NCBI GenBank assembly: GCA_020186115.1
Contig: WSYJ01000075.1
Location: forward strand, 434,001-498,000
Length of the DNA stretch: 64,000 nucleotides
Origin: Histomonas meleagridis
Lineage: Eukaryota; Parabasalia; Tritrichomonadida; Dientamoebidae
Direction: 5' to 3'
Shown here: positions 4,677 to 43,830 of the stretch, in pieces
Position numbering within the stretch: the stretch's first letter is position 1
Layout: each line of letters begins with the position of its first letter
The notes under the pieces: generated by a model
The model's input: only the letters and a program-made list of their open reading frames with translations
What the model was told of the DNA's origin: nothing
Database searches by the model: none
Made by a program: the position numbers and the translations under genes

Positions 4677-7600
4677 TTATTTGAAGAATTTCACAAATTC
4701 ATTTTTCATATCATTACGAACAAGATCTAAAGGAGTTTTGTTTTGCTTGTTCCTTGCAAATCTATCTATTCCATCGAACAAAACAAGTCTTGATACAGTA
4801 TAAACTCTTCCTCCTTTTGCAGCGAAATGAAGAGGTGTATCACCATTATTATCTTTTTGGTTTAACATTTTAGGATTCAAGTCCAAAATGTACAATACCG
4901 CATCAATATTTCCAGCGCCAGCTGCCATATGTAAAAGTGTTTGAAAAGGAAAAAATAAACGCCATTAAAAGAACTAAAAAAACATTATTTCTTATTTCTA
5001 TCTTTTTCACATTACATGATTTTAATATATTACCATCAAATGAAGGTTCAGTTAACGCGATATGTAAAGGAGTATTTCCATCATCATCAGGCACATAAGC
5101 AGACTCGATATTTTTTATAAGAAACTTTCGAATAGTTTCATTTGATATTTTACTTGTATACATGTAAGGATTAAACATTTTTAATCCAAACCAACTTTTA
5201 TCCACAATAACTTCATAATGCAAAGCAGTTTTATGAAAGTTATCTTTCACAAGTAAATCAATCGAAGGATTAACAAATAGAATACGAATAAAATCATTTA
5301 ATTTCTTTTGTGCTGCGATATGAAGTGGTGTCAAGAAAAAGAAAATGAAATTCCATCAAATATTAAAAAGAAATTTTATTTTGGATATTAATATTAACAT
5401 TTGATGATTCAAGAAGAAGTGAAGCTGATTTTTTATCTTTAAGTGAAACAGCCATATGTAAAGGGGACATTCCATTTAATGATTCAGTTATGTTAACATC
5501 AATTTTAGGACATTGTAATAATTGATTAACATAATCTGAGTTTTGTTTTTTTACTGCTAAAAAAAGAGCAGTTTCACCTTTTTTATTTTGTATATTTAAA
5601 TTTATATTTTTCATTTGTAATATTTTATTAATATGTTTAGTTCTTTGTTTCTTTATAGCTATATGAAGAACTGTATTGCCTTTATTATTTTGGGAATTTA
5701 TATCAATTCCTTCACATTTTAATAATGCTTTAAAAATTCGTTTTGATTTAATTTGCGCAGCATAATGTAATGGCGTATTTCCATAATTATCTTTTAATAA
5801 AAATTGTTCATTTGTAAGTGAAATTACAAATTTTACCATAGTTAAACATTTTGATTTCACTGCTACATGTAATAAATATTCGCCATTTTTAGCTTGCAAA
5901 TTTATATCTATCCATGATAAAGGTATTAACATTTTAATAAAATTTTGTGCATTTCTATAAATGGAATAATGTAAAAAAGGATAACCATTTCCATCAATTA
6001 AATTTAAGTTAAGTTTTCCAGTATTTAATAACTTTTGAAACATTTCAACTTTATCATATTTAATACAAGTATGTGGTGCAGTTATACCTTTAGGTGTTAT
6101 AATATTTATATCAATTCTATCATCAGATATTAAATAATCAAAGATTTTCGTTTGAGAATATTTAATCGAACATATTAATGGAGTATTTTTATATTTATTA
6201 TCAAGTAAAGAAATATCTTTCTCAAGTAATAATAAAACAATTTTAGTATTACCATAACAACATGCATAATGTAATGGATTCATATCATTAAAATTATTTT
6301 GTGACATAAAATCATTTGATTCTTGTTTATCAATAATAGTTTTAACAAGTTTTGATGATTTTTCATCAATCGCTTGTATTAATGGAGTTTGATTAAAAGG
6401 ATTTTTCAAAAACAAAGATTTACTCGATTTAATTAGAATGAAATCAACAATTTCTTTTTGTCTAAAATGAATTGCTGTATGAATTGGGAAAATATCAAAA
6501 GAAAAAATTGAACTTTAAATTTAGATAAAATAAACATATGCAATACTTAAAACTCGTGGAATTTTTTTCTGTAAAAACTCAACAATTTCTATATTTCCTA
6601 CAACTATAGAAATATACAAAATTTTCGATATTTTTTTGATTGGACCTTGAATAAAATTATCCATAATCCATTCGAATAAATCATTACGAAAAAAAGCAAT
6701 TGCAATTTTTAAACATCTTTCAAAATCAACTTTATTTTGATTTAATAAAGTTATAGTTTCAATGTTTCCACCAGCAATTGCATAATCGCCGACATGTTTT
6801 AATTTTATTAATTTTTGTAATGATGGAAAATCATCATTTTTTAATTCCAATTGAACATTTTCTTCATCTTCTGATTCATCAGAAGAAACATTTATAAAAT
6901 TTTGTTCTATTTCAAGATGTTTTATAGATCCAAACTCAGTATCTTTATTTATCAAAGCATTATTAAGTAACATAAATTTTAGACATCGAATCGATGAATA
7001 AAAAGAAGCAAATTGAAGTAATGTCGGATGTTGAATAACAGAAAACGTATGATTTAATGGAAGTATTGGAATAGTACTATTAATATCAATAAACTTCTCT
7101 TGAAATGTTTCAATATCATCTTTTGATATATAATATGCTAAAGTGTTTTCTATATATTCTTGTTGAAGTAATTTATTGAACATTTGAAAGTTTTCAGATG
7201 CTAAAAATAATTTAACGCAATTAATATCTTCATAACATTCAAAGCGCCGAAAAAATATAAGAATTTCCTTATAAATGTCTTTTCTATAAATCTTTAATTC
7301 ATATAAAAACCAAAAAAAGCGAATTTTTAATTGATCATAAAAAAGTTGTGAATTTGAATTTAGCTCAAGAAAAAAATGAGTAATAGCATTTAATATTTGA
7401 TCTAATGTAAAAACATTATTATCAACACACTTACGAAAAAAGAGCATATGATTTTGTGTGATATTTGTGGAATTTGAAAGTTTTTTTATAAAAAAATTCG
7501 GGGGTTCTAAATTAGATTTTTTTATAAATAAACATAATTTAGAATTATAAATAGCAACATCTGACCTAAAATGCATTGCATTAAACATCGCTCTTGTAAT

Positions 7601-7741
7601 TTGATTAAAACTTGATTGATCTTGCATAAAACTTGAATCTAAAATCCTTTCTTGAATGCTTTCAAAATTAGATTCATTCATCGATATAATCCAATTTAAA
7701 AGGTCAATAATAGGAGAAAATTTTGCATGAACATCTTTCAT
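4677..7741 (-). CDS. ankyrin-repeat protein interrupted by short AT-rich elements
   Basis: Read from the ATG at 7741 (MKDVHAKFSPIIDLL; an upstream in-frame GTG is ignored), the first about 400 residues resemble the helical N-terminal region that precedes ankyrin repeats in trichomonad families. About twelve ankyrin repeats follow (GNTPLHYAAQIKSKRIF, GETALFLAVKKQNSDYV). The frame is broken at three points, 6497-6535, 5335-5374 and 4944-4983, each at the hairpin loop of a repeat. Removing 17-nt elements (one is 19 nt) restores a continuous frame, giving loops NK-DG-L-TPLHIAA and N-NG-Q-TLLHMAA. Without this, the locus splits into four ORFs. Ankyrin arrays bind proteins; no specific partner can be inferred. 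Either it is a working gene with removable inserts or a lightly broken pseudogene. Confidence 0.7.
4944..6535 (-). other. six short intervening elements in the 4.7 kb ankyrin gene
   Basis: Minus-strand elements: 6517-6535 (19 nt), 6497-6513, 5358-5374 (ATTTCTTTTTAATATTT), 5335-5351 (ATTTCATTTTCTTTTTC), 4967-4983 (GTTTTTTTAGTTCTTTT), 4944-4960 (GTTTATTTTTTCCTTTT). Between them remain single or double codons (AAA; GATGGA then TTG; AATGGC then CAA) that supply exactly the residues missing from the ankyrin loop consensus. Each begins with a purine followed by TT and is pyrimidine-rich at its end. None has GT-AG ends. Confidence 0.6.
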
Positions 7742-8266
7742 CAGTTCATAAAATTGAACTGTCACTTTTTGATAAATATTCTATCTAATGAAAACATAAC
7801 GAACAACTGCGTAACTGATATTCCATCACTACATACATTGTTTCTTTCTTTCAAAATTAAAATGCTTATTAAATCACATGAAGATGAAGGACACAAATAT
7901 TTTATATTATTCCTTCATTATTTTCCCATAAATATTATTCTTCGTTAAATGTTTCTACATACTTAATCAAGAATTTCATGATTTCAGAGTTATAAATTGT
8001 TTAAAAGATTTCGTGACATGCAAATTTATAAAACTTAATGCTTCATATTACACTCACAAATTCATATATTTTTATTTCCTAATATCTTATAATATTGATA
8101 ATTTTTGCTTAAAACAAAGATTTGAAAGGAGAAGAAATAAAATTTTATTTATTGGTCGAGCAGGTTTGTTAAAAAAGTGACTAAAATTTTGCACACAAAA
8201 ATAACTTCTCCGAATTGAAATTTCTGAGCAACGATCACACTCAAATGTTACTTCACTCCAACACTG
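7742..8266. other. intergenic region, no supported gene
   Basis: AT-rich spacer separating the divergently transcribed ankyrin gene and the 8.3 kb gene. Only short ORFs occur, without a family match or a convincing Inr. Confidence 0.5.
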
Positions 8267-9085: not shown

Positions 9086-10643
9086 ATGCTTGAAGTTTAT
9101 GTTTCTTCAGCATGTAACCTTCCAAGCGCTGATTCAAATGGGTACTCTGATCCATACGTAGAGATATGGTCTGACGAAATTCCGTTATCACCCCGCGACG
9201 ACAAAATATTTTTCAAAAAAACTAAAGTTCAAAACAAGACCTTAGATCCAGTTTGGGATTCAAAATTTTCCAAACCTTTTCGAATACCTTTTGTTTTATC
9301 CAGTTGTTTGGAGTTCAAACTTTATGATCATGATGCTTTCAAATCAGATGATTATCTTGATAATGCCAAGATTAAGCTTACACCTGAATGCTGTAATAAA
9401 GTTCTTACTTTACCAGTAGAGACATCACAAACAACTAAAGGACCACCAACACTTACCATCCACAAACTTTCCTACTGATCCAAATTACAAGAGCTACAAA
9501 AACATTTATACGTATATTACATACTCACCAACTGATTCAAGCAATTCTTCGATTTTCCTCGATGCATATATTATAGAATTTTCAAGTACTCTTTCATGTT
9601 ATCCGGTAATAAATGGCTATAGCTTTTATAAGTCGTCTAAATCCATGCAAAATCCTCACATTGGACCCTCTGGATTCACAGATGTATTTCGCTTCAACAT
9701 CAACAAATTCGGTTCACATATTTTCACTGACGAATTTATATTATTTTTTGTTGCAACAACAAAAAATTATTCTGGTGAAGTTACACTTAATTTTCTCTGC
9801 GCACCAATCGAGCGTAAACAACGCAATAAGACAAAGAAACTTAAGAATTCTGATCAGTACAAACTCATACGAACATGTACAATTCGAGCGAATGCGAATC
9901 AACACCAAGTTTCCCCACTTTCTATACATTATTTCAAAAATAGTAACATAAACAAATTCGAAGAACTTCAATTTCAACCATATCAAACTATTGACGAACT
10001 TCTTCATCAAGTTTGTTCATATTATTCATCGAATAAAAGGTATTCATTACGAATAGAAATGTTGCCCAATTCTCCAATGAGTTTAATCAAAGCATGTCAA
10101 ATACATCGAGTGGAAATCCCCAAAAAAATTGATTTTATTGTTCAGCGCGTTGGATATTGTTCTCCTTCTTTACGTTGCAAAGTATATCAACAGAAAGACA
10201 AGAAATTTGTTGAAATCGATAACATTTGTAATGAAAATATGAAAAATGATAATGAATCAATTGTCTTTTCGAATACGTTCGGAGATTTTCAACAAATAAT
10301 TTCCATTGATTTGGAAAAATTAAAATATGAATCAGAAATAATTCCGATTTATTTGCAAACAAATATAAATATCGATTACGTGATCAAGTTCGACGACGCT
10401 TCTGGATTATCGATAAGAGTTTTGGACGTGAAAGATGGATATGAATTGTTGAATTGCGTGCCGCCTGGAGGAAAATCGATTTTAATAATGGCTGTGCTGA
10501 TGAGAAATGCAAATAACGCGTGGAATCTGTACAGCTGCATGAAGTCTGATTATATAAACCCAGATGAGTTCGATAATTACGTGGATAAATTCGTAAATGG
10601 TAAGAAATTGGTGACAAGTCTATTGGAAATGGATGAGTTGTAA
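9086..10643 (+). CDS. C2 domain plus TerD-like protein, broken by one frameshift
   Basis: The first part (ATG 9086 to TGA 9478, 130 residues) is a C2 domain: LEVYVSSACNLPSADSNGYSDPYVEI, then LDPVWDSKF and LYDHDAFKSDDYLD supplying the Asp residues of calcium-binding loops. It ends LTIHKLSY. In another frame, open from about 9471 to 10643, follows TerD-like sequence (IFLDAYIIEFS, then FATTKNYSGE-like strands) and a second similar module ending at TAA 10643. Trichomonads have C2 proteins with such tails, so the two frames are probably one gene. A shift of one nucleotide around TTTCCTACTGATCC (9464-9480) joins them. The role is calcium-dependent membrane or signalling binding, by family only. The break may be a sequencing error, a true pseudogene or recoding. 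Confidence 0.6.
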
Positions 10644-11424: not shown

Positions 11425-12374
11425 ATGAACTCAGATGAACCTGGTGAAGGAATTAGATGGGCAGCAATAAATAACAATGTCCTAGTCCTTAAGTCACTCC
11501 TTAAGTATGATATCAATTCAAAGGATATTTATTTTATTAATTCAAAATTTATTTTGAAAATTTAATGTTTCATTATATCATTTGGCGTTTTTTCGATTTT
11601 TTTCAGACTGCCCTTATGCTTGCTTCCGAAAAAGGACATATCGAAGTCGTAAAAATCCTTCTCGAACAAGAAAGCATCGATGTAAATGCAAAGAATATTC
11701 ATTTATCATTTAAGTTGTTTATTTCAAAAGCTTTTAGTTTCATTCCAAATTATGGTGTTTATTAAAATTATTATGGACAGCAATTACATATGCATGTAAG
11801 GGTGGTCAAGCTGAAGTCCTCAAATTACTCCTTAAGATGGATACAGTCGAAGTTGATTTTCATGACTTAGTTTTTTTCAATGATTTGGTGTATTCATTTA
11901 TCATTTGGAATTTGTTTATCATATTTAAAACACCTTTAATGTATGCTTGTATCTTTGGACACAACGATGTTATACAAATCTTACTTCAACAGAAATTAAT
12001 TGACATTAATGCAGTTGATATTTGTTCATTTTATTTATTATTTATTTTAATGATTTTATGTTTATTTATTGAATTTGGAATTTGCTTAATTTTTTTCAAA
12101 CTGCTCTGATGTGGGCATCCTATAGTGGACATGTTGATACTGTTAGGTTACTTATTGAGCAAGAAGGCATTGATCTAACTGTTGAAGATGATTAATTTTT
12201 TGATTTGAAGTTATTTTAATTTTTATGAAATTTCTATATAATGCTTGGAATTTATTCCAACAATTTAAATCAGCATTATCAATTGCAGAAGAAAATGGTC
12301 ATGATGAAATCGTTAGTTTACTTAATGATAAATTGGATTCACTCACTAACTACATTTCAAGGAGTTTTAGATGA
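11425..12374 (+). CDS. ankyrin-repeat protein made of 90-nt coding blocks split by nineteen 17-nt elements
   Basis: As plain DNA the frame closes after a few dozen codons. Coding blocks lie at 11425-11526, 11607-11696, 11777-11866, 11930-12019, 12100-12189 and 12270-12374; the four inner blocks are exactly 90 nt. Each encodes one ankyrin core (TALMLASEKGHIEVVKILLE, TPLMYACIFGHNDVIQILLQ, TALMWASYSGHVDTVRLLIE). Between the blocks sit four codons for the hairpin loop (KNGQ, VLGW, LGGK, IYGQ, EEGK), each separated by 17 nt. Removing 19 elements leaves 627 bp, 208 residues, no stops, start to TGA. The ATG follows TCATTTTTT, an Inr 17 nt upstream. Probably a cytosolic ankyrin adaptor; partner unknown. 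Confidence 0.75.
11527..12266 (+). other. nineteen 17-nt intervening elements
   Basis: Group 1: 11527-11543, 11547-11563, 11567-11583, 11587-11603. Group 2: 11697-11713, 11717-11733, 11737-11753, 11757-11773. Group 3: 11870-11886, 11890-11906, 11910-11926. Group 4: 12020-12036, 12040-12056, 12060-12076, 12080-12096. Group 5: 12190-12206, 12210-12226, 12230-12246, 12250-12266. Most start ATTT or GTTT and end TTT (ATTTATTTTGAAAATTT, GTTTCATTATATCATTT). The retained codon before the last element of each group is always Gly, written GGC, GGT or GGA: synonymous variation that marks it as coding. Exact boundaries could slide by one or two bases in some elements, notably 11697-11713. Confidence 0.7.
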
Positions 12375-12541: not shown

Positions 12542-15500
12542 ATGAGTCAATTGATTAGTACACTTGATGAATTTACAAGCAAGCAAATGTTCTTCCAAAC
12601 AAGCACGGAGTTTGATAAAATCGTTTCTTCAATTGAATATCCTGTGATCAAGAAAGAAGATATCAACGACATTTCAAATAAACTTCAAAACAACCCAAAA
12701 GCACAAATACCAGAAATCCTTACCTTTGTTTCACCTTATTTTATATTTTATCCCAAAATATTGAAAAATTTCCTTGATTCCAAAATCGAAAACCAACAGA
12801 AAGCTAACATGTTTGTATATGAGAATGCCATTGCATTTTATTCGCATAATTTTAAATGTGATTTTTCGAATGAAATTGATATTTTATTTTCAGCACTTTC
12901 TAAGATATATACCAATTCCAATGCAGACAAAGTCGATTACTTCTTTTTTACCATCTCACATTTGGTTATAACCAAATCACCACTTTCATTAAATGAATTA
13001 TTTTTTTCATCAATCTACAAATACCTCCATAAGAACCACCAAAAGGATTCTACTGTCTATCAATTTGTAGTTGATGTCTTATTTTGTATTTTTTCCATTA
13101 ACAAAATTGAATATTCGCATGATTTCTTTTCGTTCATCCAAGAAATCTTTGATACTACGTGTAACGAAGAGTTATTAATGCCCATATTAACCAGCAGAAT
13201 GTTTAATTTAGAGTATGATATCTTTGCAACGATAGCATCGATATCAAAAGTGAAATATAGTTCGAATATTGAGTTTATTTATGGCAAATTACCATTAGTC
13301 ATCAGTAAGTTTAATAATGACAAGCCAATCGAAATCGAAAAACCGATTAATTTCCCATATTCGGAATTTAAAGAAAAAGATACGACATGTTGCATTGATG
13401 TATTTAGTTATGAAGATGAAATTGCATATTGTGATATCCCCGAAAACAATTTACAACTTATTGATTTCATCGGCGATGAAGTTAAGAATTCGATACATAT
13501 ATTACTTTTAGCGTTTAATAATACACGGAAAGAATATATACAATCATTTTATGAAGAGTTTGACAAACTGATTGATAATGATTTTTCTATTTCATTATTT
13601 GTTATTTATTTATATTTTGTAGATTTAAATTTAGGCGATTTAAGTTTAACTAAAAATGATATAAATACTTTACTTAACAAAAACATTTTTGATCCTAATT
13701 TAACCATCTTTAATACAAAATTATCAAATAATTTGAACTTTTTAAGAAAAGAAATTATTGATATAATATGTAAATTATGTTCGAAACAAATATTAATAGT
13801 TTTTGAGAAATTTGCAAATAATCCATTTTTGTTTTGTGAAATACTTTTTAGAATACAAAAATCAATTAGTTTAGTTCCTGATATTACTATATTTCAAAAC
13901 GAAGAAATATTTTGTATATTAATGGAAGTTGATTTTAAATGTCGAAACTTATATAAAATAATTAATAATGAATATAAATCGAATGCTTTAAGTGCAAGAT
14001 CGAAAATCTTTAACTTAGTATTAACATTTTTACAATATAAATCATTCACATTAAATACATTTCAATTACCATTTTTTACTATTTCGTTTTTATCGGCATT
14101 TTTCGAAAAACAATTTCGTAATAGTATATTATCACAATTAAAAGAAATATTAATAAATTCGAATTCTTATGAATCGAATCCAGCAATTGATTTCATTGAA
14201 TCAACAGTTCGAACAATATCTACAAAAGATAATTCTAATTTAGTTTATATTGGAATTATAAAATGTTTAAATGATTGTGTTTTATTAGATCCACGTTTAA
14301 CATTATGTTGTTCTAAAGTGTTTAAAACGATTATTAATGTATTACCATTAAATATTATTAATTTAGAATTAATTACGAATTTATTAAAATTCGGTGTTAA
14401 TATTTATATCTTTTTGTTTCATTTTAAATTAGAAAGTTCATATTTAATTAAATTAATTGAAATATTAAATGAAGTAAAATTAAATAAAACAATTCAAACA
14501 AATTTAATTGATTTAATAGCTAAAAGTACATCTGTTAATTTTAAGTCATCATTTTTAATACAAAATCCAAATATCATTGAGTTTGTTATAGCTGTTTATT
14601 CATCACATAATAAACTTGAGAAAATATTAAATTGTTTATTTAATTTATGTTGTTTCTCATTAAGTAATATCATTAATTTACATTATGGGAATATTGATTT
14701 ATTATTATTAGAATTTTTGAATAATTTTCCGAATAATTTTGTGTTTCATAAACTTCCATTTAATAATATAAATCAAAAGAATATAATACATAAATTAATA
14801 TATCCTTTATTCATTAAAATATCAACAATACAAAGTTCTTTTATAGTTGCAAATAAAATTATGGAAATCATTTGTCCACATTTAATTGATAAATCACAAT
14901 TTGAATTTGATGAAAATACAATAAAGAATAAATCGAATTATAAATTTAATGATTTATCATTTGAATTATTAAGTAATTTATTAGCAAATTTTGCATCTTA
15001 TAATAATAATAAAATGATTTATTTCTCATTATTAATGAGTCAAAGTATCGATACTGAAACTAATATTCAATTCCAAAAATTATTATCCGGATTTTCTTCA
15101 TGTTTTTGGATATATATTGATCAATATTTCTCACGACAAATTAATACACGATTAATAATATTTACAATTAAATCGAATTCGAATGATTTAATTGAAGCTT
15201 ATATTCAACGTTCTTCATTCTTCTTAAGACTTTATGCAGATTCTACACATTTTGAAGATTTCATTTTAAATGAAAACATTAGTTTAGGAACATTTACTAT
15301 GATAACATTTACATTAAAATCAGAAAATGGTCGATTATTTATAGCATCACGAATTAACTCTGATTTAATTCGACGAAGTGAAATAATTATAAATTATAAT
15401 ATGAATACGAATTGTAAAATTGTAATTGGTAAAGAAAATAATGAAGATTATCCTGAAATTATATCACGATCTTCATTCCAATTACGATCTATAGCTATAA

Positions 15501-21698: not shown

Positions 21699-23945
21699 TT
21701 AAATGTGTGTAACAAATGCTTGTTCATTAAAATCATTTGCAAATGGGTCTTCTTCAATATCTTTAAATGATAATCCAGAATAATTATTGATTTCCCTCGT
21801 TTCATTTGAGTTTCCAATGTCAATATCAATTTCATCATCTTGATCATTTTCATCTTCATAATTAATTTTTTGATTTCGTCGGATAATAATAATAATCGTA
21901 ACAATTATCACAGCAAAAACAATTATTCCAATGACAATTCCGATGATTAAAAATATATTCGTATCTTTCCCTGTTTCATTTTGTTTATCGTCATTACCAT
22001 CATAAACATTCATAAAATAAAAATCGAAATAATATGAAATATAAGTTGAATACATTATAACTGTATAATCATAATAAATAATTTCAGTGATAACATATGT
22101 ATAATCATTGGAAAATTGTGTGAAAATCATTGAGATTGAACTATATATATTATTAATTGAAATTGTATTTATCAATGTTAAAGAATTTGTTAAAGTATTT
22201 GATAATGTAATTCCATATGAATATGAATGTTTTTGTGTCTCCATTTCTGTTGATATTAAAGGTGATTGTGAAAATGTTGGATGTGGTGATTGAGATAATG
22301 ATGGAGTTTTCGAAACAGATGCTGATGCTGATGGTGATGGAGATCGTGAAGGTGATCTTGTCGGCGATTCTGTTGGTGAACGTGATGGTGAAGGTGATTC
22401 TGTTGGTGATCGTGATGGTGATTTTGAAGGAGTTGCATCTGGAATTGGAATAGTTATATTTGCAATGTCACCAATATTTCCAGCTCCATCAACTGCTGCA
22501 ACAAAGACATTCATTCCACTGGTAATTTGTTGTGAATTTAAAGAAATGTAATTGTCTTTTGTTGAATTTGTTAAATCATCAACAGTAACACTTTGATTAT
22601 TTGTAACTATGTAAATATAACGATCAACTCCTGTCGTAACATCAACTTCAACTGGCTCAGATTCTGCATAAACATCATCATTAGATTTTAAAAGCGCTTG
22701 AACTTTGAATCTGTATTTCGATCCTTTATCAATACCATTAATATTAACTCTATATGATTTTTCATCATATTTAAGATTGACTGTTGGTGATTCATAATCT
22801 TGTGATGAATGATCTTCTGCAAATGTTTCATAAGTCCTTTGATTTAAATAATAAATAGTATTCGCAAAAATTTTCCTTTCTTCGATTGTCGATTCACAAT
22901 TACTATGACCTGTTTGAATCATTGCTGTGTTATCTTTCGTTGTAAGATAGAAATTATGTTGAAGACCTGAACTATCTGCTTGTGTATTTGTATTAGTTCC
23001 TAATGTCATCCAAACATCACCTGTAGTTGCTTGATAATTTGTATGTGTCGTTGGAATTGTGAGAACAGTTCCGACATCGCCGATTTGATATGGATAATTT
23101 GTTAATAAACCTTTGCGAACGACTGTAATAGTTTGTTGTGAGATAAATTGATATTGAATATTTACACCATTATAAGAGTTATCACTTTGTTGAGATTTAA
23201 TTCCAAAAAGATCTCTGATTGAAAGTAAACTTGTTGCAACACCATTAATATATAAGTTATATGCGATGGAATCATGTCCTGCCAAAAATCCATACCCTTT
23301 GTTGATGTATCTTGTAACTGCACCTTCAGCTGTTTCTGTTGTAATTCCATAACCTGTACTGGCATCCCATGTTCCAAAAACAATAACACTATAGTTGTAG
23401 AGAAATTCGTCATCATTTGCTCTTTCTTCAAATTCATTAATTGAAATTGGTGTGACATAAATCAGTTGTTCACCTGTAGTAGTATCAATACCATAAGGTT
23501 CGAAGGTGGTTCTCGAACCATCGCTATCTATCATGATACCTCCTTCCATCCAAATCTTTAATGAGGCTGATTTTGGGAGTGTATGCCACACATCAGATCC
23601 TTCTTCATCTTTATATTGAAAATTAACATCATAAGTGTTATAACTCCCAGCCCATGAGGAGCTCTGTCCTTTATTTCCATCAGTTTGACTCGGATAGATG
23701 TTTAAAACATTAACACGTGTACCTGATTTATACGTACTGATTTGTTTCCAGGTAGTATCATAATCACCAGTATCTGTGTCATAACTTTGTTGGAAAACTT
23801 TATAATATATTTCTTGATTTTCAATTTTTGACCAATTTAAATATGCGCCACCTTTACCAGATGCATATGAAGTATTAACCTGAACATTTAAGCTTATGGT
23901 TTGGCTTGATTGACAATGAGCTAAGATGAACGACAAAACGAACAT
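21699..23945 (-). CDS. type I membrane surface protein with Ser/Pro-rich stalk
   Basis: 748 residues. An N-terminal signal peptide (MFVLSFILAHCQ) leads into a large beta-rich ectodomain with fibronectin-like stretches (GKGGAYLNWSKIENQEIYYKV; KYRFKVQALLKSNDDVYAES). Residues about 505-565 are a low-complexity stalk of S-P-[S/T]-[R/E/P] units. A strong transmembrane helix (IFLIIGIVIGIIVFAVIIVT) is followed by RR and an acidic cytoplasmic tail (DENDQDDEIDIDIG). This layout resembles trichomonad surface proteins with O-glycosylatable stalks, so a role in adhesion or surface coat is plausible but inferred. The ectodomain family is not identified. The DNA of the stalk is imperfectly repetitive. Confidence 0.8.
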   Translation of the reverse strand: MFVLSFILAHCQSSQTISLNVQVNTSYASGKGGAYLNWSKIENQEIYYKVFQQSYDTDTGDYDTTWKQISTYKSGTRVNVLNIYPSQTDGNKGQSSSWAGSYNTYDVNFQYKDEEGSDVWHTLPKSASLKIWMEGGIMIDSDGSRTTFEPYGIDTTTGEQLIYVTPISINEFEERANDDEFLYNYSVIVFGTWDASTGYGITTETAEGAVTRYINKGYGFLAGHDSIAYNLYINGVATSLLSIRDLFGIKSQQSDNSYNGVNIQYQFISQQTITVVRKGLLTNYPYQIGDVGTVLTIPTTHTNYQATTGDVWMTLGTNTNTQADSSGLQHNFYLTTKDNTAMIQTGHSNCESTIEERKIFANTIYYLNQRTYETFAEDHSSQDYESPTVNLKYDEKSYRVNINGIDKGSKYRFKVQALLKSNDDVYAESEPVEVDVTTGVDRYIYIVTNNQSVTVDDLTNSTKDNYISLNSQQITSGMNVFVAAVDGAGNIGDIANITIPIPDATPSKSPSRSPTESPSPSRSPTESPTRSPSRSPSPSASASVSKTPSLSQSPHPTFSQSPLISTEMETQKHSYSYGITLSNTLTNSLTLINTISINNIYSSISMIFTQFSNDYTYVITEIIYYDYTVIMYSTYISYYFDFYFMNVYDGNDDKQNETGKDTNIFLIIGIVIGIIVFAVIIVTIIIIIRRNQKINYEDENDQDDEIDIDIGNSNETREINNYSGLSFKDIEEDPFANDFNEQAFVTHI
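22270..22440 (-). repeat. imperfect short repeat encoding the Ser/Pro stalk
   Basis: GGTGATYSTGATGG-type units recur irregularly and encode SPSRSPTE-like residues in the surface-protein stalk. Such tracts readily expand or contract by slippage. Confidence 0.6.
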
Positions 23946-25105: not shown

Positions 25106-26119
25106 ATGTTGTTGTTTTCCTTCCTTTGGTGCGGCATACTAAACAAATGTCCTACGTGTGATCCAGGTGAATACTGTTCATCCACATCATCAACTTGCAT
25201 AAAATGCCCTCCTGGTACTGCTACTTCTACTTCTGGATCATCTTCATGTAATCGATGCAACAAAGGATATTACAATGAAGATTATGGAGCCACGAGATGT
25301 AAAGCATGCCCAGCAGGTTACTACAATGATGAATATGGTTCCACTTCATCATCAGCATGTCGAATATGTGAGCCAGGAACTGCAAGCTCATCAGCGGGAT
25401 CTGCATCATGCAGTAGATGTAACAAAGGATATTACAATGAAGAATATGGATCTACAAAATGCATAGCATGTCCAGCAGGTTATTATAACGATGAATACGG
25501 GTCTAATTCTTCATCAGCATGTCGAATATGTGGACCAGGAACCGCGAGCTCATCAGCGGGATCAGCCTATTGCAGTCGGTGTAATGTTGGTTATTACAAT
25601 GAAGAATATGGATCTACAAAATGCATAGCATGTCCAGCAGGTTACTACAATGATGAATATGGTTCCACTTCATCATCAGCATGTCGAATATGTGGACCAG
25701 GAACCGCGAGCTCATCAGCGGGATCAGCATATTGCAGCCAATGCAACAAAGGATTTTATAACGATAAATACGGATCTACAAAATGCACTGCATGTCCAGC
25801 AGGTTACTACAACGATGAATACGGGTCTAATTCTTCATCGGCATGTCGAATATGTGGACCAGGAACCGCGAGCTCATCAGCGGGATCAGCATATTGCAGT
25901 CAATGCAACAGGGGATTTTATAACGATAAATACGGATCTACAAAGTGCACAGCATGTCCAGCAGGTTATTACAACGATGAATACGGGTCCACTTCATCAT
26001 CGGCATGCAAAAGATGCCCCAGTGGAACCATTAGCTATAGCTCTGGGTCAAGTTCATGCGCGAAATGCAAAGAGGGATATCACCCGAATTCTTCTCAAAC
26101 TGAATGTGTTAAAAACTAA
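25106..26119 (+). CDS. secreted Cys-rich repeat protein (GCC2/GCC3-like)
   Basis: 337 residues. A short signal peptide (MLLFSFLWCGILNK) is followed entirely by Cys-rich units of the ephrin-receptor-like GCC2/GCC3 type (CPAGYYNDEYGS, CGPGTASSSAGSAYC). The 54-residue double unit is repeated about four and a half times with little change. No transmembrane segment or anchor is visible at the C terminus, so it is probably secreted or held by partners; tail truncation relative to longer family members is possible. TCATTCAATC just before the ATG is a good Inr. Its neighbour is a stalked surface protein, suggesting a surface-gene neighbourhood. Confidence 0.75.
   Translation: MLLFSFLWCGILNKCPTCDPGEYCSSTSSTCIKCPPGTATSTSGSSSCNRCNKGYYNEDYGATRCKACPAGYYNDEYGSTSSSACRICEPGTASSSAGSASCSRCNKGYYNEEYGSTKCIACPAGYYNDEYGSNSSSACRICGPGTASSSAGSAYCSRCNVGYYNEEYGSTKCIACPAGYYNDEYGSTSSSACRICGPGTASSSAGSAYCSQCNKGFYNDKYGSTKCTACPAGYYNDEYGSNSSSACRICGPGTASSSAGSAYCSQCNRGFYNDKYGSTKCTACPAGYYNDEYGSTSSSACKRCPSGTISYSSGSSSCAKCKEGYHPNSSQTECVKN
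25304..26020 (+). repeat. 162-bp coding tandem repeat, about 4.4 copies
   Basis: Units start near 25304, 25466, 25628, 25790 and 25952, marked by GCATGYCCAGCAGGTTAYTA. Exact 162-bp spacing keeps the frame (54 codons). Copies are nearly identical at the nucleotide level, including synonymous sites, which indicates recent expansion or homogenisation. Confidence 0.85.
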
Positions 26120-27469: not shown

Positions 27470-29537
27470 TCATGTTTTAAATCTTTTTCTTTCTTTATCA
27501 TAGGAGTTCATTTCATATAAAACAAATAAATTTCTTTTACATTAACATCAATTTTCTTATGTTCGGGTAATAATTTGACAATTTCTGCGTTACCATTTGA
27601 AAATGCAATCATAAGTGCTGTATTAAATATTATTTTGAAATAAGAAAATATTAAAATAAATTTTGTTTCAGGCACTAACATCCAATTCTTTATGTTCAAT
27701 AAGTAATTTAACTATTTTCGTGTAACCTTTTTCAGATGCTTTCTTAAGTGCTGTTTCAAATATTTAATATAATTTCCAAATATTATTTTGAAACATCCCA
27801 AAATTATTAAAATAAATTTCAAATAAAATAAATAAATATTTTGTGCATTAATATCAATTCCTTCTTGTTCAAGAAGTAATTTAACTATTTTTGGATAACC
27901 ACTTTCAGATGCTAAAATAAGTGCTGTATAAAATATTCAAAATAATTTTCAAATTTTATCATAAAATATAATAATATTAAATTAAATTTCAGGATAAATT
28001 TAATAACATCTTTAACATTAAGATCAATTTCTTCATGTTCAAGAAGTAATTTAACTATTTTTGTACAACAACTTTCAGATGCCAACATAAGTACTGACCT
28101 AAATACATTAAATAATTTCCAAATATTATTTTGAAATATAAAATTATTAAGATTTATTACAAATAAAGAAAATCAATTCCTTCAGCATTAACATCAATTC
28201 CTTCTTGTTCAAGAAGTAATTTAACAATTTCTATTCTGTCATTTAAAGATGCATTCATAAGTGCTGTATATAATAATTTAAATAATTTCCAAATATCCTT
28301 TTGAAATATAAAATTATTAAAATAAATTCTAAATAAAACAAATAAATATCTTTAGCATTAATATCAAATGTTTTTTGTTCTAAAAAATATTTCACAAGTT
28401 CAATATTTCCAGATCCTGAAGAGAAAACAAGAATATTTTTTGGAGTTTTTCTAGATTTAAGAAAATATTTGACAAGAAAAATATTTCCATATTTTGCTGA
28501 TTCATTGATAATATATTTATTAATTTTCATTCCTTCTTTTTCTAAAAATGAAAAAAATTCTTAATTATGATATTCAATACATTTTGCTCCAATTTCATCT
28601 ATAGAAATATTTTCTAATCTTTTATACAAAATATATATTTAAAGATATCATTTTTGCGAAATTCAATTGCTATTTTAAATGCCCCATAAAATGGTGAATT
28701 ATTTTCTTTACATAAATCAATGATTTCAAGATTTCCACTTGCAATAGCATATTCACCTGCATATTTCACATCTGCACCTTTTGTCAGCAAATATTTAAAA
28801 CATTTAACAGATCCAAAAAATGTTGCATATTTAATTAATGTAACAAACCATTGATTAATTAAATCACATCTTTCATAAGGTGATTGTTCAACCAATTGAT
28901 TAAAATCAAAATCATTTTGTGATGATATTTCTTGGAGTTTTTCTATATCATCATTTCGAATTATTGTTGCAATTTCACTTGGATTATGTCCTTCTTTAAT
29001 TAATTGTTTATGAAGTTCAAAATTATTCTTTGATAGTTCTTCATAATGCTTTCTTAAATATTGATAATGAAATTCATAACTTAGGACTTCTCTTATATTC
29101 TCTTTTGACATATATTGCAAAAAATATGGATTTTTTGAATTTTGAACAATTTTTTGATCAAGTAAGTTCTTATCAATCATTGTCTGAAGAACATAACATG
29201 ACTCTTGCGTATCTTCATTAAGAAGAAAATTCACATATTTATCAAAAAGATTAATTTCTTTTTGAAATTTCTCTTCTAATTTTTTAAATTCATTGAGGAA
29301 ATTCAAATATAAATCAATATCATCTAATCGTAGTTTTATAATTCCATGCATAATCTGGATGATAATCGTACAAAAAGAATTCGGATAAATATCATCAAAT
29401 TTTTCAATGATTGATTTTGCAGCTTGCATAATATTTTCTTTGTTTAAATTAAGGAATGAATGTTCGATCGATTGCAATGTTACAAATTCATACATATTTT
29501 GTTTACATTCTTTTTCATTGGGATTGGGTTCCATCAT
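27470..29537 (-). pseudogene. decayed ankyrin-repeat gene, paralogue of the 41.6 kb gene
   Basis: From ATG 29537 the N-terminal region (about 300 residues, containing HNPSEIATIIRNDDIEKLQE and LLTKGADVKYAGEYAIASGN) closely matches the 41.6 kb gene. After FKYIF a one-nucleotide shift (near 28620) and an in-frame TAA (near 28562) interrupt the region that is intact in the paralogue. Ankyrin repeats follow, each separated by the same 17-nt-element groups. One further TGA (27668-27670) lies in a late repeat. With the elements removed, the tail reads VNVKE-EMNSYDKERKRF to a stop at 27470. Lesions independent of the 17-nt elements make this a probable pseudogene. Confidence 0.65.
27515..28347 (-). 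other. nineteen 17-nt intervening elements (ankyrin pseudogene)
   Basis: Groups on the minus strand: 28331-28347, 28311-28327, 28291-28307, 28271-28287; 28161-28177, 28141-28157, 28121-28137, 28101-28117; 27991-28007, 27971-27987, 27951-27967, 27931-27947; 27821-27837, 27801-27817, 27778-27794, 27758-27774; 27645-27661, 27625-27641; 27515-27531. Retained codons give loops RYGY, VYGR, EYEY, EWDGE. In the third group the conserved Gly codon has become GAA. Several elements are identical to those at 43 kb (ATTTATTTTAATAATTT, ATTTCAAAATAATATTT). Confidence 0.6.
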
Positions 29538-29667
29538 TGTGGGGGAAACGATACAACAAATTGAATATTTTATTTAATAAAAATTCATTTCAATTTGTTT
29601 ATTTTAATGAAAATCGAACATTAAGAATAAATTCTGAAAATGATTTTTCAAATGATTATGAAAATTA

Positions 29668-30294
29668 TAAAATTCAGTACAACATTTAATCATTGAAGGA
29701 AGTGATACAATTCCAAGTTCAGCTTTTGTAAATTGGAATTCATTATCCACAGTTAAAATTGGTATATTAGTTTATACAATTGAACAAGATGTATTTTCAG
29801 CATGTAATAAATTGGAAAATGTCATATTAGGCGAAGATTTAACAACGATTGGAAGTTATACATTTCAAAGCTGTATTAATATAAAAAACATTACAATTCC
29901 AAAATTAGTTACATCAATAGCAATAAATCCATTTTTATATTGTTCAAAACTTCGATTTATTTATGTTTCCAATGAAATTTTACATTTTTCAAATTATGAA
30001 AATGATGGAATTTTATATGATAAAAATATTGAAAAATTATTTATTTATCCAATAGGAAATATAATAAATTCATTTACAATACCAAATTCAGTTATATCAA
30101 TTTGTGAAAAAGTATTTGAATTATGCAATAATATAAAAACGATTATTCTTGGCGAAAATGCTGAAACTATTGGAAGTTATGCATTTTATTCATGTAAAAA
30201 TTTAGAAACGATTATTTATTGGCTAAAATGTAAAAACGTTTATCTTTCGATTCTCTTTTCGTTAATGAATGACTATCACTATAACAGTCTCTAA
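29668..30294 (+). pseudogene. truncated BspA-like leucine-rich-repeat gene
   Basis: One frame, open without an ATG start from just after a TAA near 29665, encodes BspA/LRR_5-type repeats: CNKLENVILGEDLTTIGSYTFQSC, FTIPNSVISICEKVFELC, IILGENAETIGSYAFYSC. The family usually has many more repeats, a start Met and, in some members, a C-terminal membrane anchor; all are missing. After CKNLETIIYW the sequence stops resembling LRR and runs to TAA at the border of the next pseudogene. It is a fragment, probably left by recombination. Confidence 0.7.
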
Positions 30295-31882
30295 AGTATG
30301 TCGCCATCAATAAATCGAGCTCCATATGAAAGGTTTCGTGCTAATTCATCTTCATATCGTAACTTCGCATAATATGGTATACATGCATCACATGGACAAT
30401 AACAATCAACCATTTGACTTGGGTTTGATAAGTTTTGGACACTCCATGCAGTAAGTAATTCACCTTCAGAGTTCACGAAGAGATCATTAGGATATGTTTC
30501 TTTAATCCAACGATCATTCCATGATATCCAACCTTTTTCGTAATATTCATATATACTTGTATCTTGATATATATCATATGTACTAATTAAGATATCACTT
30601 AAGTTGTTTTCGGGATAATCAATGTATTCTTTTCCTGATCCCATAGCATTTACTATACTTTGGATACCTAAACTTTTCATTTCCTTAAATAAGTCAATAC
30701 GTGATGTTTTCCAAGAGCCCATTACATACGTAAGAGCTCCTCCAACAAGTTTATCAATGTTTGTGTTCCGTTTAACTTTCTCTGTAAAGGTTACTAAAAG
30801 ACCTTTTTCTTGTGCTATCTTTCGATAACGTTTGGCTATAGTAACATGATTACCAGAGAAAAACAAAACACGCATTTTCCGTTGATATGAAAAACGTCCT
30901 TTTTCAAGTTCAAAATATGGACCGAGAGTATATAACCCATCAGATCCTACGGATACTATAGCATGTCCATCATATGGCGTATCAAAGACATACATTAATG
31001 ATGACTTACTATTAGTAACACCATATCATGGCATGGATAATTTGCCCATGGGATTAGAAAAGGATTTCTGATAACTACCGCTGGTGGTATATACTGTATC
31101 TCCATTAGGTATGTTAAGACCTTCATGATATGACGCTTTTGTATGTTAAAAACGCTTTCGGAAAAGATGGACCGCCATCTTAATTCATCATCTTTAAGAT
31201 CAAATGTGATGTTGTATGATGATAAGCCATCCATAAAATGAAACGTTTTGGAGTTAGCTGATTGTGTAAAGACTTCCATAACTGTCCAACTTCCACTTAT
31301 TCCATTATTAATCCATGTGCGATTTGACGTCTTGTCAAAAACTGTGGTACATAAGGTGCCTGCATCAATTTGAATATCGAGTTTGTCATTGGAAAATGTG
31401 ACATTTGATTCTGGAGCATCATAATGTTTGACAAATTCATACCATATGTTAGTGATTTTGCCTTCTGAAGGTTAGCCACCTGTAAATCTTATCGTGATAC
31501 GATGTGTTCGTGGTGGAAGATTAACAACGGTTTCAAGATTTTCTTGTTGACCTGTTTTAGTTGATGAAACAGTCCCAAGAGTCCAGGTCAGAGTTGTACC
31601 ATTTTCATCACCTGGAACAATTGTCGTCTTGACTATACCTGAAACCATATTAACTGTTGCACCAAATTTGTATTGATCACCACCTTTTACTTCAAGTGGC
31701 ATACCATAACCCATACCATATTCTGTAGCAGAGCCAGTATATTTGAATGTTAAGGAACCATCTTGTCCTTTGCTAAATGTAATATCACCTTGAGGCCAAG
31801 TATAGTAACTACCGTTGATGGGTACTCTTTCACAATTTACAATTAGAGCAAAAAATGGTAGAAGCAGCAGGGTTTTTTTCAA
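30291..31882 (-). pseudogene. broken secreted glycoside-hydrolase-like gene
   Basis: From ATG 31882 comes a signal peptide (MKKTLLLLPFFALIVNC) and a beta-rich domain, then an in-frame TAA at about 31472-31474 after RFTGG. The same frame continues PSEGKITNIWYEFVKHYDAP to about 31140, shifts frame near NTKASYHEG, meets a TGA (LSMP*YGV, near 31027) and continues as 234 residues ending DGDIL. The C-terminal half (MYVFDTPYDGHAIVSVGSDG; NAMGSGKEYID; ISWNDRWIKETYPND) looks like a TIM-barrel hydrolase of the large DUF5696-type or GH101-like group, but the assignment is uncertain. One shift and two stops, plus likely C-terminal truncation, make it a pseudogene. Confidence 0.6.
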
Positions 31883-41045: not shown

Positions 41046-41647
41046 TTTGGGATTACAATTGTATTATATTATTATAATGATATAAATAAAAGTTCTCAAA
41101 TATTTTGATGTCATTAAGTATTTATCTCAAAATTATTCGCCATCTTTTTCTATTCAAATTCCACGCGACTTTTTCAATATCAAACCGTTGCAACCACAAT
41201 CAATTGTAATTCACACATATTGTCACTTTTTGATGTAATTAAATCTTTATTTATATATATTAATATACATTCATTTGGTTAAATGAATGCCTGCGTAGCA
41301 TAGTGGTTATTGCGTTCGCCTTGTAAGCGAAAGGTCGGCGGTTCGACTCCGCTCGCAGGCAAAATTTTTGATTTTTTTATTCATCCTGAAAATAAGTCTA
41401 CTAAGTAATTTTTTTATATAAAAAAATAAGCATCACTCATATTTATTTCCATTAAATCTTTCATGAAATATATCTTGACGTTATAGGCTTATGATACATA
41501 AGGTAAAACTATTGTATTCATAAAACAGTTATTCTATTTTATGAAAGAAAAGTAGCTAATTTTAATAAAATTTTTTTCCCATTTTTTGTTTTCATATCGA
41601 GAGGTTGCTACGGTTATTTGCATAACTTTTGTTTTTCTAAATTTAGA
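41046..41647. other. intergenic region with tRNA-Thr
   Basis: Apart from tRNA-Thr at 41289-41361 the gap is AT-rich. AACCGTTG (near 41184) and TACGGTTA (near 41610) are M3-like motifs facing the neurofibromin and ankyrin genes respectively. Confidence 0.5.
41289..41361 (+). tRNA. tRNA-Thr (TGT)
   Basis: A complete 73-nt cloverleaf. Acceptor GCCTGCG pairs with CGCAGGC, discriminator A; anticodon stem TTCGC/GCGAA encloses loop CTTGTAA (anticodon TGT, T33 present); the T arm is GGCGG-TTCGACT-CCGCT with one terminal G-T pair. No intron. Confidence 0.95.
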
Positions 41648-43830
41648 ATGGGAGGCAATATAAGTCAAATATTTGAGAGCGACCAAAAGCAACACGCTGG
41701 AAACCTTCAAATGTTGCAGAACTTAGAGCAAGTAATTTTCGATTTAAATGATAAAAACATTGATGATACTATAGGATCTCTTTTAGCAAACTTCCCACAA
41801 GAGTTTCCATATTCATACAATTTAATTATAAGTAATTTAACATACTCATATTATATATCAAAAGGACTTGATCAGCTATGTCTTGAATTTTTAAAAAAAT
41901 TGGAATTAAAAGAAAATGAAATTGGTCTCAATAATAACAAAATCATTGATATATTTATAAAATGTTTAATATCTAAAGATACGCAAGAATCAAATTTTCT
42001 TTTGGAAAAAATGATTGAAAACAATATGGCCGATCCTTTAATTTGTAAAGACAAATCAACGCCATACTTTGCACATCGCATTTCAATTGATAAAATAAAA
42101 AAAATAAAATCAAATAAATCTTATCGATACTTCTTGGAAAGCATTGAAGAACTCTCAAAGAATGATTGGCAACTTCATAAGCAATATGTTAAAGAAGGAC
42201 ATAATCCAAATGAAATTGCAAGAATAATTCGCAATGATGAAATAGAAAAACTACAAGAAATATCATCACAAACAAATTTTGATTTCAACCAAAAAATAAA
42301 ACCATCACTTTATGAAAGATGTTCATTTATTAATGACGGTTGTGTAACATTAATTGGTTATGCAGCATTTTTTTCTTCAGTAAATTGTTTTAAATATTTA
42401 CTTATGAATGGTGCAAATGTAAAGAAAACAGGTAAATATGCAGTTGCTGGTGGAAATGAAGAAATCATTCATTTATGTATACAAAATCATTCTGAATTTG
42501 ACGATGTATATGAAACAGCAATTAAATTTCATCGAAATGATATCTTTAAATATATTTTTGAAAATAGAATAAAACAAATATATAGTTTCAGGGGGGTGGG
42601 AATTAATTGTATTTTATATAATAATTATGAAATTATTTCATTTTTGTTTGAAATAGGAATGATTATTGATAAATATATAATTTTGCGTGCTATTGATACA
42701 GGAAATTTATTTATAGTCCAATATTTTATTGAAAAAAACCCAATTTCAATACGTTTTTCTGATCTTGATTCGGTATTCGAAAACAGAGAACTATTTAATT
42801 ACATTATTAATAACAAATATTTTAATTCTGAATATAAAAATGTTTTTATTAATGGTTGAATGTTTAATTATTTTATATAAATTTTCATAAAAATATTTAA
42901 TGGTTTGTTTGTTTATTCTGCACGTAGAGGTCGCACTGATATATTTAAATTACTTCTTGAACAAAAAGGAATCGATATTAATGCTAAAGATATTTGTTTT
43001 TATTATTTTATATTTGTCTTAATAATTTTATATTTCAAAATAATATTTGGAAATTATTTAAATTATTTGAAACAGCACTTATGAATGCATCCGAAATTGG
43101 TCATACAGAAATAGTTAAATTACTTCTTGAACAAGAAGGAATTAATATTAATGCTGAGAGTAATTCTTTGTATTTTATGTTTATTTCAGCAATTTGGCAT
43201 TTCAAAATATATATTTGGAAATTATTTAAATTATTATGGACTGCACTTATGTATGCATCTGAAAAAGGTGATATAGAAATAGTTAAATTACTTCTTGAAC
43301 AAGAAGGAATTGATATTAATGCTAAAGATAAAATTTATTTATTTTGATTTTTATTTATTTTAATAATTTGATATTTCAAAATAATATTTGAAAATTATTT
43401 AAATTATTTAAAACAGCACTTATTAGAGCATCTGAAAAAGGTCATACAGAAATAGTTAAATTACTTCTTGAACAAGAAGGAATTGATGTTAATGCTAAAA
43501 ATATTTATTTGTTTTATTTAAAATTTATTTTAATAATTTAATATTTCAAAATAATATTTGGAAATTATTTAAATTATTTTGGACAGCACTTATGTATGCA
43601 TCTAGCAGTGGTTACACTGAAATAGCTAAATTACTTCTTAAACAAGAAGGAATTGATATTAATGCTAAAAATATTTATTTGTTTTATTTGATATTTATTT
43701 TAATAATTTTATTATATTTCAAAATAATATTTGGAAATTATTTAAATTATTTTGGACAGCACTTATTTTGGCATCTTCAAATGGTTATACAGAAATAGTT
43801 CAATTACTAAAGAAACACAATGCATGCTAA
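41648..43830 (+). CDS. ankyrin-repeat protein with 23 short intervening elements
   Basis: ATG 41648 (MGGNISQIFESDQKQ); an upstream in-frame TTG is not used. About 400 residues of N-terminal helical region containing HNPNEIARIIRNDEIEKLQE and ankyrin-like AGGNEEIIHLCIQN run to TGA 42857-42859. That TGA, and later stops, vanish if 17-nt elements are removed. Then come ankyrin cores TALMNASEIGHTEIVKLLLE, TALMYASEKGDIEIVKLLLE, TALIRASEKGHTEIVKLLLE, TALMYASSSGYTEIAKLLLK and a short last one, ILASSNGYTEIVQLLKKHNAC, ending TAA 43830. Loops read DYYGE, DKFDEK, NKNGW, NDYYGW. Unlike the 27.5 kb paralogue, the N-terminal part is intact. If the elements are not removed, the product is a 403-residue protein without these repeats. 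Confidence 0.7.
42842..43752 (+). other. 23 short intervening elements in tandem 170-bp ankyrin units
   Basis: 42842-42858, 42862-42878, 42882-42898; 42992-43008, 43012-43028, 43032-43048, 43052-43068; 43162-43178, 43179-43195, 43199-43216 (18 nt), 43220-43236; 43333-43349, 43353-43369, 43373-43389, 43393-43409; 43503-43519, 43523-43539, 43543-43559, 43563-43579; 43673-43689, 43693-43709, 43716-43732, 43736-43752. Elements in the same slot are nearly identical between units (third slot ATTTCAAAATAATATTT, fourth AATTATTTAAATTATTT), so core plus insert was duplicated as a block of about 170 bp. Confidence 0.65.

Follow-up and report, generated by a model that had tools for sequence, protein, structure and literature searches.

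In our study, an ankyrin gene of Histomonas meleagridis was found to be interrupted by nineteen elements of exactly 17 nucleotides, which lie between single codons. The gene is located in a window of 64,000 nucleotides (the whole stretch of DNA analysed; contig WSYJ01000075.1, positions 434,001–498,000), which had a GC content of 29.1%. The grid at 11425–12374 is not due to chance; it recurs in the window and in most of the 349 inserts that were parsed. It characterises one gene family across the genome rather than a single gene, and no tested family of intervening sequences fits it. The triplets between the elements are almost certainly under selection as codons of a protein that lacks the elements. 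That they are consecutive ankyrin codons, as the first-pass annotation had claimed, was borne out by stop depletion, by the match to the loop D-x-x-G-x-T, and by a divergence like that of uninterrupted contact codons.

The coordinates of the features are listed in Table 1. The six open pieces of 11425–12374 contained no internal stop, and the inserts between them were 80, 80, 63, 80, and 80 nucleotides long, respectively. Checked piece by piece, the parse originally proposed (4 + 4 + 3 + 4 + 4 = 19 elements of 17 nucleotides with single triplets between them) was confirmed, and the coding length without the elements was likewise 627 nucleotides (102 + 4 × 90 + 105 + 60). The inserts hold 20 triplets, which complete the ankyrin hairpin loop D-x-x-G-x-T, and the elements are AT-rich. 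The first-pass annotation had also taken the synonymous variation of the loop glycine as proof of coding, and this argument was found to be weak. In 240 inserts the third triplet (slot 3) was Gly in 201, overwhelmingly as GGA (189; GGT 6, GGG 6, GGC 0), and 39 encoded other amino acids, so that variation of the Gly codon alone is no proof of coding. Coding is shown by stop avoidance and codon hypervariability.

Table 1. Interrupted ankyrin features of the window (positions are those of the window; E, 17-nt element)
Feature	Position	Strand	Description
Ankyrin gene	11425–12374	+	ATG to TGA; 19 elements of 17 nt across five loops
Open pieces	11425–11526; 12270–12374		102 nt; 105 nt with TGA at end
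Cores	11607–11696; 11777–11866; 11930–12019; 12100–12189		exactly 90 nt each
Insert 1	11527–11606	+	four E; codons AAA AAT GGC CAG; loop D-KNGQ-T
Insert 2	11697–11776	+	four E; codons GTT TTA GGT TGG; loop N-VLGW-T
Insert 3	11867–11929	+	TTA right after GAC, first E absent; then three E with codons GGT GGA AAA; loop D-LGGK-T
Insert 4	12020–12099	+	four E; codons ATT TAT GGA CAA; loop D-IYGQ-T
Insert 5	12190–12269	+	four E; codons GAA GAA GGA AAA; loop D-EEGK-S
Head before second array	41507–42859	+	uninterrupted; DUF3447 and ankyrin matches
Second interrupted array	42992–43755	+	five inserts
Second-array insert	42992–43071		80 nt
Second-array insert	43162–43239		78 nt, irregular
Second-array insert	43330–43412		83 nt
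Second-array insert	43503–43582		80 nt
Second-array insert	43673–43755		83 nt
Third interrupted array	27755–28347	-	four inserts
Third-array insert	28268–28347	-	80 nt
Third-array insert	28098–28177	-	80 nt
Third-array insert	27928–28007	-	80 nt
Third-array insert	27755–27837	-	83 nt
Loop of divergent ankyrin gene	4944–4983	-	N-N[17]N-G[17]Q-T; E at 4967–4983 and 4944–4960
Loop of divergent ankyrin gene	5335–5374	-	N-K[17]D-G[17]L-T; E at 5358–5374 and 5335–5351

Both further arrays of the window share the grid of 17 + 3 nucleotides, with one irregular insert of 78 nucleotides. By eye, the head of the third array was found to be broken ahead of the array, where the frame changes and a stop occurs (window 27755–29573). 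Three heads were compared with Pfam, and all matched DUF3447, one above the curated cut-off and two below it. The reading frame next to the first gene (12542–14000) gave no match at E ≤ 0.001 in a protein search. Tandem repeats were present at 25252–26007 (a 162-nt unit repeated 4.7 times) and 22318–22422 (a GAT-rich array of 6/30/42 nt), both within open reading frames. A broken frame with one in-frame stop and one frame change was observed at 30291–31882 (minus strand); two of its three pieces were searched against Pfam and gave no match, and no 17-nt element was seen by eye at its breaks. The frame breaks at 9400–9520, 30961–31080, and 31401–31520 were devoid of any element by eye.

The window was examined together with 68 other loci from this genome (69 sequences, 354,983 nt). 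Because the loci were picked by a match to Ank_2 or to the element pattern, the frequencies do not represent a random sample. Measured from the last codon of one core to the following core (632 rows), the spacing was 80 nucleotides in 240 rows, followed by 63 (59), 83 (26), 60 (17), and 100 (7), so that the main spacing classes are sums of 17s and 3s. Further spacings were 45 (29 rows), 12 (16 rows, uninterrupted loops), 81 (10), and 79 (3), and every other spacing was found in at most 11 rows. The 45-nt spacing was rejected as an element class; by eye, 25 of its 29 rows belonged to a conserved part of the head domain. Among 1324 elements parsed in 349 inserts of the 69 sequences, 1306 were 17 nucleotides long, 13 were 18, and 5 were 16; the parser allowed only lengths of 16–18 nucleotides, penalised 16 and 18, and placed elements only between codons. 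The parse score failed for 108 of the 457 candidate inserts (55–125 nt), which were left out, including twelve of 80, five of 63, and four of 83 nucleotides. With E for an element and c for a codon, the layouts found most often were E-c-E-c-E-c-E-c (227) and c-E-c-E-c-E-c (50); inserts of the 63-nt layout lack exactly the first element and retain its codon. The 18-nt elements were found in L028 (minus strand, about 2163–2756) and also in L012, L023, L025, L027, L035, and L038. One of them was common to four repeats of L028, and a length of 18 nucleotides may be tolerated.

In the whole genome, with as many as 3 mismatches allowed, the element pattern gave 6448 matches versus 371 for the reversed control. 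Since the examined loci show 460 pattern matches per 1324 parsed elements, scaling by proportion suggests perhaps some 18,000 elements in the genome; this number is rough, as the sample was a selected one. Ankyrin repeats flanked at least one side of each of 19 isolated pattern matches inspected by eye. The exact flank words AATGCTAAARAT and ACAGCACTTAT formed 1706 pairs at 58–85 nucleotides, two at 31–57, and one at 0–30 (7 nt between the words). The first 100 of the 1706 pairs comprised 81 at 80 nucleotides, 7 at 63, 6 at 83, 3 at 81, and one each at 66, 68, and 71.

The triplets were strongly depleted of stop codons. In 230 unique 80-nt inserts, 3 stops were found in 920 triplets at the triplet register, where the base composition of those columns predicts 58.9; two of the 3 lay in one insert with an 18-nt element, out of register. 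The 63-nt class contained 0 of 162 (6.0 expected) and the 60-nt class 0 of 48 (3.2 expected). After deduplication (one triplet per locus, slot, and type) one stop remained in 578 triplets versus 43.8 expected, and a bootstrap over 55 locus-strands gave an observed/expected ratio of 0.017 (0 to 0.060). In slots 1–4 (239 triplets each) 0, 0, 0, and 1 stops were found against 6.2, 18.0, 1.8, and 33.3 expected, respectively, so that slots 2 and 4 bear most of the signal. One insert of L012 (81 nt, out of register) was removed from the per-slot, deduplicated, and boundary counts, which left 239 of 240. One base to the left of the triplet register, 439 stops were found versus 414.2 expected. The 19 other registers were mostly near expectation, some slightly above it, and the largest other shortfalls were 13 versus 38.7 expected (9 bases to the right) and 26 versus 41.7 (6 bases to the right). 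Among 172 T-initial triplets, TAT was found 80 times, TGG 47 times, and TAA once.

The divergence between repeats was also examined. In the 76 closest repeat pairs within arrays, the 68 element sites differed by 2.6% and fourfold sites by 2.1%, and slots 1, 2, and 4 differed by 29.8, 34.6, and 36.8%, respectively; slot 3 (Gly) differed by 5.7%. The hypervariable, uninterrupted core codons 5, 8, 9, and 11 showed 29.8% difference in the same pairs, and the other core positions 5.3% (first and second) and 6.2% (third). Since the triplets diverge about as much as the contact codons of the core, the split loop codons behave like uninterrupted contact codons. The contrast was smaller in the 74 most divergent pairs (elements 32.6%; slots 42.3, 55.4, 30.2, and 60.4%). 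In 139 nearest-neighbour pairs, the pooled element positions 1–17 diverged by 0.040–0.135 per site and the triplet positions by 0.44, 0.29, and 0.34, so that element and triplet are sharply delimited. Core codons 5 and 8 carried two- or three-base differences in 42 and 38 of the 76 pairs, and slot 4 carried multi-base differences in 25 of 76, where the elements were almost identical. Such changes point either to diversifying selection of great strength or to a process of codon exchange or hypermutation.

The elements consist of 35% A and 59% T, mostly in the form [A/G]TTT...ATTT, and are on average 1.6–1.8 substitutions away from their slot consensus. From the element and fourfold divergence by class (2.6/2.1, 8.3/6.6, 15.6/13.0, and 32.6/21.3%), the element letters appear to drift at about the synonymous rate, the last three positions slightly more slowly. 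Length is held more firmly than sequence, because only 18 of 1324 elements deviate from 17 nucleotides and the letters drift. In non-coding flanks, 0.158–0.233 gaps per mismatch were found below 20% divergence and 0.111 above it; these rates are rough, since they come from all-against-all alignments and are counted repeatedly. Permissive pairwise alignment of inserts was rejected as a measure of indels, because compensating gaps were placed (305 of 1 nt and 238 of 2 nt); its gap excess at 17 (162) and 20 (48) is illustrative only.

The cores are those of an ankyrin repeat protein, with its repeat of 33/34 residues and the motif D-x-x-G-x-T-A-L...A...G-H. In total, 215 of 224 were 90 nucleotides long with the ankyrin consensus, part of which the core search motif required at each end, and one of 224 had a length that was not a multiple of 3. 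Two of the 6683 core codons were stops, and an open frame was kept by 221 of 223 cores; in-frame core ends were required, so that shifted copies are under-counted. Directly ahead of the first insert, 15 of 61 arrays had at least 250 open codons, 7 had 100–249, and 39 had fewer than 100. The last group is one of earlier interrupted loops or broken heads. With some defects and short open heads, not every array copy need be live.

Elements were also present in divergent ankyrin genes, as single, double, or triple insertions in a loop. One such gene, mostly uninterrupted, lies at 4801–7780 of the window (minus strand) and has two loops with elements (Table 1) beside element-free loops. By eye, the locus L004 contained the loops N-K-F-D[17]M-T, D[17]N-E[17]G[17]W-T, D-E-N-G[17]N-T, and Q-S[18]N[17]G[17]L-T together with five uninterrupted loops. 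In all six interrupted loops of the two genes an element lies immediately ahead of x4, the last variable loop position. The pattern GTTTATTTNNTNNATTTGGANTT, chosen to pick out more divergent genes, gave 50 matches versus 7 for the control. To judge from the sequences, single elements can be present or absent without breaking the frame. A 45-nt in-frame break with stops was seen in the window gene at about 6500–6560 (minus strand); it may hold three elements, and its ambiguous parse was left uncounted. A second ankyrin subfamily (L009, L014, L017, L018, L021, and L024) contained near-identical elements ATATGTTTTAATAATTT in runs of three to six units per loop, with single codons between them.

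The explanation that we prefer is that fixed-length, non-coding elements of 17 nucleotides, which sit exactly between the codons of the β-hairpin loop (D, x1, x2, G, x4-T), would be cut from the transcript before translation. They would be micro-introns removed by a non-canonical process, either an altered spliceosome or another machine that cuts and joins RNA. The signal recognised would be the short AT-rich block [A/G]TTT...TTT, and three-letter exons would be joined in a row. Ankyrin loops and further core positions contact ligands. Because these positions are hypervariable, the product would probably be a large repertoire of binding proteins. A dedicated 17-nt system, unlike known splice signals, that removes or skips blocks at about 18,000 places with single codons as exons seems fairly probable. 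The whole explanation, codon reading together with excision as micro-introns, is in our judgement slightly on the probable side, and for removal at the RNA level the chances appear about even. Excision is favoured over skipping by the ribosome, because it needs no particular tRNA behaviour and leaves the flanking codons unrestricted. Several points count against excision. All placeable elements are in phase 0, which is not required by splicing; strict phase 0 and fixed length favour the ribosome, and the phase may have been inherited through repeat duplication. Serial exons of three nucleotides would be extreme for a spliceosome. The transcript-trained annotation of H. meleagridis contains 573 introns, at most one per gene (PMC8529796, accessible text), and this too counts against the excision reading.

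The claim that the elements fit no described class was supported, as the tests for GT–AG ends, branch site, matched take-off and landing codons, and TA boundaries all failed. None of 960 elements had the ends GT...AG; 48 started with GT, 4 ended with AG, and 3 ended with AC, so that the ends of U2-type introns (GT...AG, rarely GC-AG or AT-AC) were not those of the elements. As for a branch site, CTAA occurred in 11 of 960 and CTAAC or CTAAT in 4 of 960. The motifs of trichomonad type A and B introns (GYAYGY ... RCTAACACAYAG) did not characterise the elements. In the exact form, GTATGT...CTAACACACAG with 4–34 nucleotides between had no match in the genome, as in the control, and the trichomonad 3' motif ACTAACACACAG had 3 matches versus 2 in the control, which is background. 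This motif was at background although 573 introns are annotated. The tiny introns of heterotrichs (15–16 nt, GU–AG) were not matched either, as the elements are near-uniform in length but have 17 nucleotides and no GT...AG. No stable fold that could guide excision was detected in 60 of the 230 unique 80-nt inserts with 40 mononucleotide shuffles each (mean z +0.27, sd 0.90). The titles and abstract openings among the matches listed in the accessible literature on introns of Histomonas, Tritrichomonas, and Trichomonas, on short introns, on bypassing, and on Histomonas ankyrin described no such elements.

Translational bypass, in which the elements are kept in the mRNA and a cytosolic ribosome skips 17 nucleotides after each loop codon, is a possible but rather unlikely reading. 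It agrees with the position of every placed element between codons (the parser allowed only such placement) and with a fixed length and nearly free letters, as if a distance were measured; dozens of inserts are bypassed in a documented case (PMC5009743). However, the matched take-off and landing codons of bypassing were not found, as the last element triplet equals the preceding codon in only 9 of 956 cases (at least two of three letters in 131). In only 1 of 956 cases is the preceding codon immediately followed by a stop, the triplets are diverse (44 types among the 80-nt inserts), and dozens of hops could be needed for one protein. The arrays might otherwise be unexpressed as they stand and serve as a silent store, from which codons reach uninterrupted, expressed genes by gene conversion. 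We consider such a store improbable, although the high codon diversity between repeats in nearly identical surroundings and the broken heads of some array genes would suit it. The lack of uninterrupted recipients speaks against it: with the exact flank words, a search that diverged flanks escape, no copy of the main repeat with a 12-nt loop was found in the genome. In addition, 15 of 61 arrays directly follow at least 250 open codons, and the transfer itself would still require removal of the elements.

Each insert of 60–120 nucleotides might also be one ordinary intron with non-coding inner triplets, since single introns are common and the inserts are compact, AT-rich, and placed at one repeat position. 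This reading was rejected on the stop avoidance of the inner triplets (in slot 2, none of 239 versus 18.0 expected) and on their variability, which is like that of contact codons; furthermore, the loop x-x-G-x would be lost and the insert length changes in increments of 17 and 3. Its probability is minimal. Programmed elimination of the elements at the DNA level, like that of the internal eliminated sequences of ciliates, would suit exact, short, AT-rich elements between coding segments. It is very improbable, as TA direct repeats occur at the boundaries in only 161 of 956 cases (with a slide of up to 2 nt) and the ciliate rule of TA at both boundaries is not followed; the sequenced DNA retains the elements, and we know of no two-nucleus system in trichomonads. 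Decaying pseudogenes or an artefact of assembly would explain the stops in every long frame, the broken head of one window array, and the short open stretch (fewer than 100 codons) before the first insert in 39 of 61 arrays. Against this, random stops and frameshifts were not found in the coding parts (with in-frame ends required and shifted copies under-counted, 2 of 6683 core codons are stops and 221 of 223 cores read through), the pattern matches number in the thousands and are consistent, and the assembly was refined with Illumina reads (PMC8529796). Decay or artefact is thus as far from probable as the single ordinary intron.

The published assembly of the virulent strain of H. meleagridis comprises 43,414,808 bp in 187 contigs with a GC content of 28.66% (Table 1 of PMC8529796) and was built from Nanopore reads before the Illumina refinement; the genome searched here comprised 43,276,120 bp in 121 contigs. 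The elements are shorter than 20 nucleotides and would be treated as deletions, and gene finders would see only fragments, which suggests why such genes would be missed. Common read aligners call gaps below about 20 nucleotides deletions. If the codons are joined, a eukaryote expresses genes with runs of single codons, 17 nucleotides apart, without GT–AG. In that case either RNA processing counts length rather than known splice signals or cytosolic ribosomes hop repeatedly. Either route would test limits that are supposedly firm, namely the minimum size of introns and exons and the contiguity of codons in mRNA.

The elements resemble the spliceosomal introns of 15–16 nucleotides in Stentor coeruleus, which are ultra-short, AU-rich, and almost uniform in length (PMC9505925). 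The Stentor introns mostly start with GU and end with AG, and their branch A has a fixed position (PMC9505925, accessible text), whereas GT...AG was found in 0 of 960 Histomonas elements. A likeness also exists to the type B introns of Trichomonas vaginalis (23–25 nt), which are short and T-rich; some of the introns of this related parabasalid are located in ankyrin genes (PMC12316389, accessible text). The type B introns, of which the T. vaginalis genome has 24, have GT/AG ends and a CTAA branch site (PMC12316389), whereas the Histomonas elements are without GT...AG. The motif of the related long T. vaginalis introns is ACTAACACACAG (PMC12316389), which in Histomonas is at background level. 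In the accessible part of the genome paper of Tritrichomonas musculus, introns are given for 5.66% of genes and ankyrin is not mentioned.

Non-coding blocks between codons are also found in gene 60 of phage T4 (50 nt) and in the mitochondria of Magnusiomyces capitatus (81 inserts), and many inserts per genome are common to Histomonas and M. capitatus (PMC5009743, accessible text). These bypass systems belong to another compartment, and the Histomonas inserts differ in that their length is fixed at one value, matching codons are rare, and stops at the take-off site are almost absent. Inserts of M. capitatus too lack perfect matching in several cases (PMC5009743, accessible text). The array genes resemble a naturally occurring library of DARPin-like binders, in which contact codons are diversified between near-identical repeats. 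The internal eliminated sequences of ciliates are short, AT-rich inserts between coding segments; the Histomonas elements are likewise short and AT-rich, whereas the TA boundary rule is absent. The consensus of ankyrin repeats and DARPins is D-x-x-G-x-T-P-L-H-x-A-x-x-G-H. The coding part of the Histomonas genes follows this consensus and places its variable triplets on the contact positions, and its loop codons, in contrast to those of the consensus, are split by elements of 17 nucleotides.
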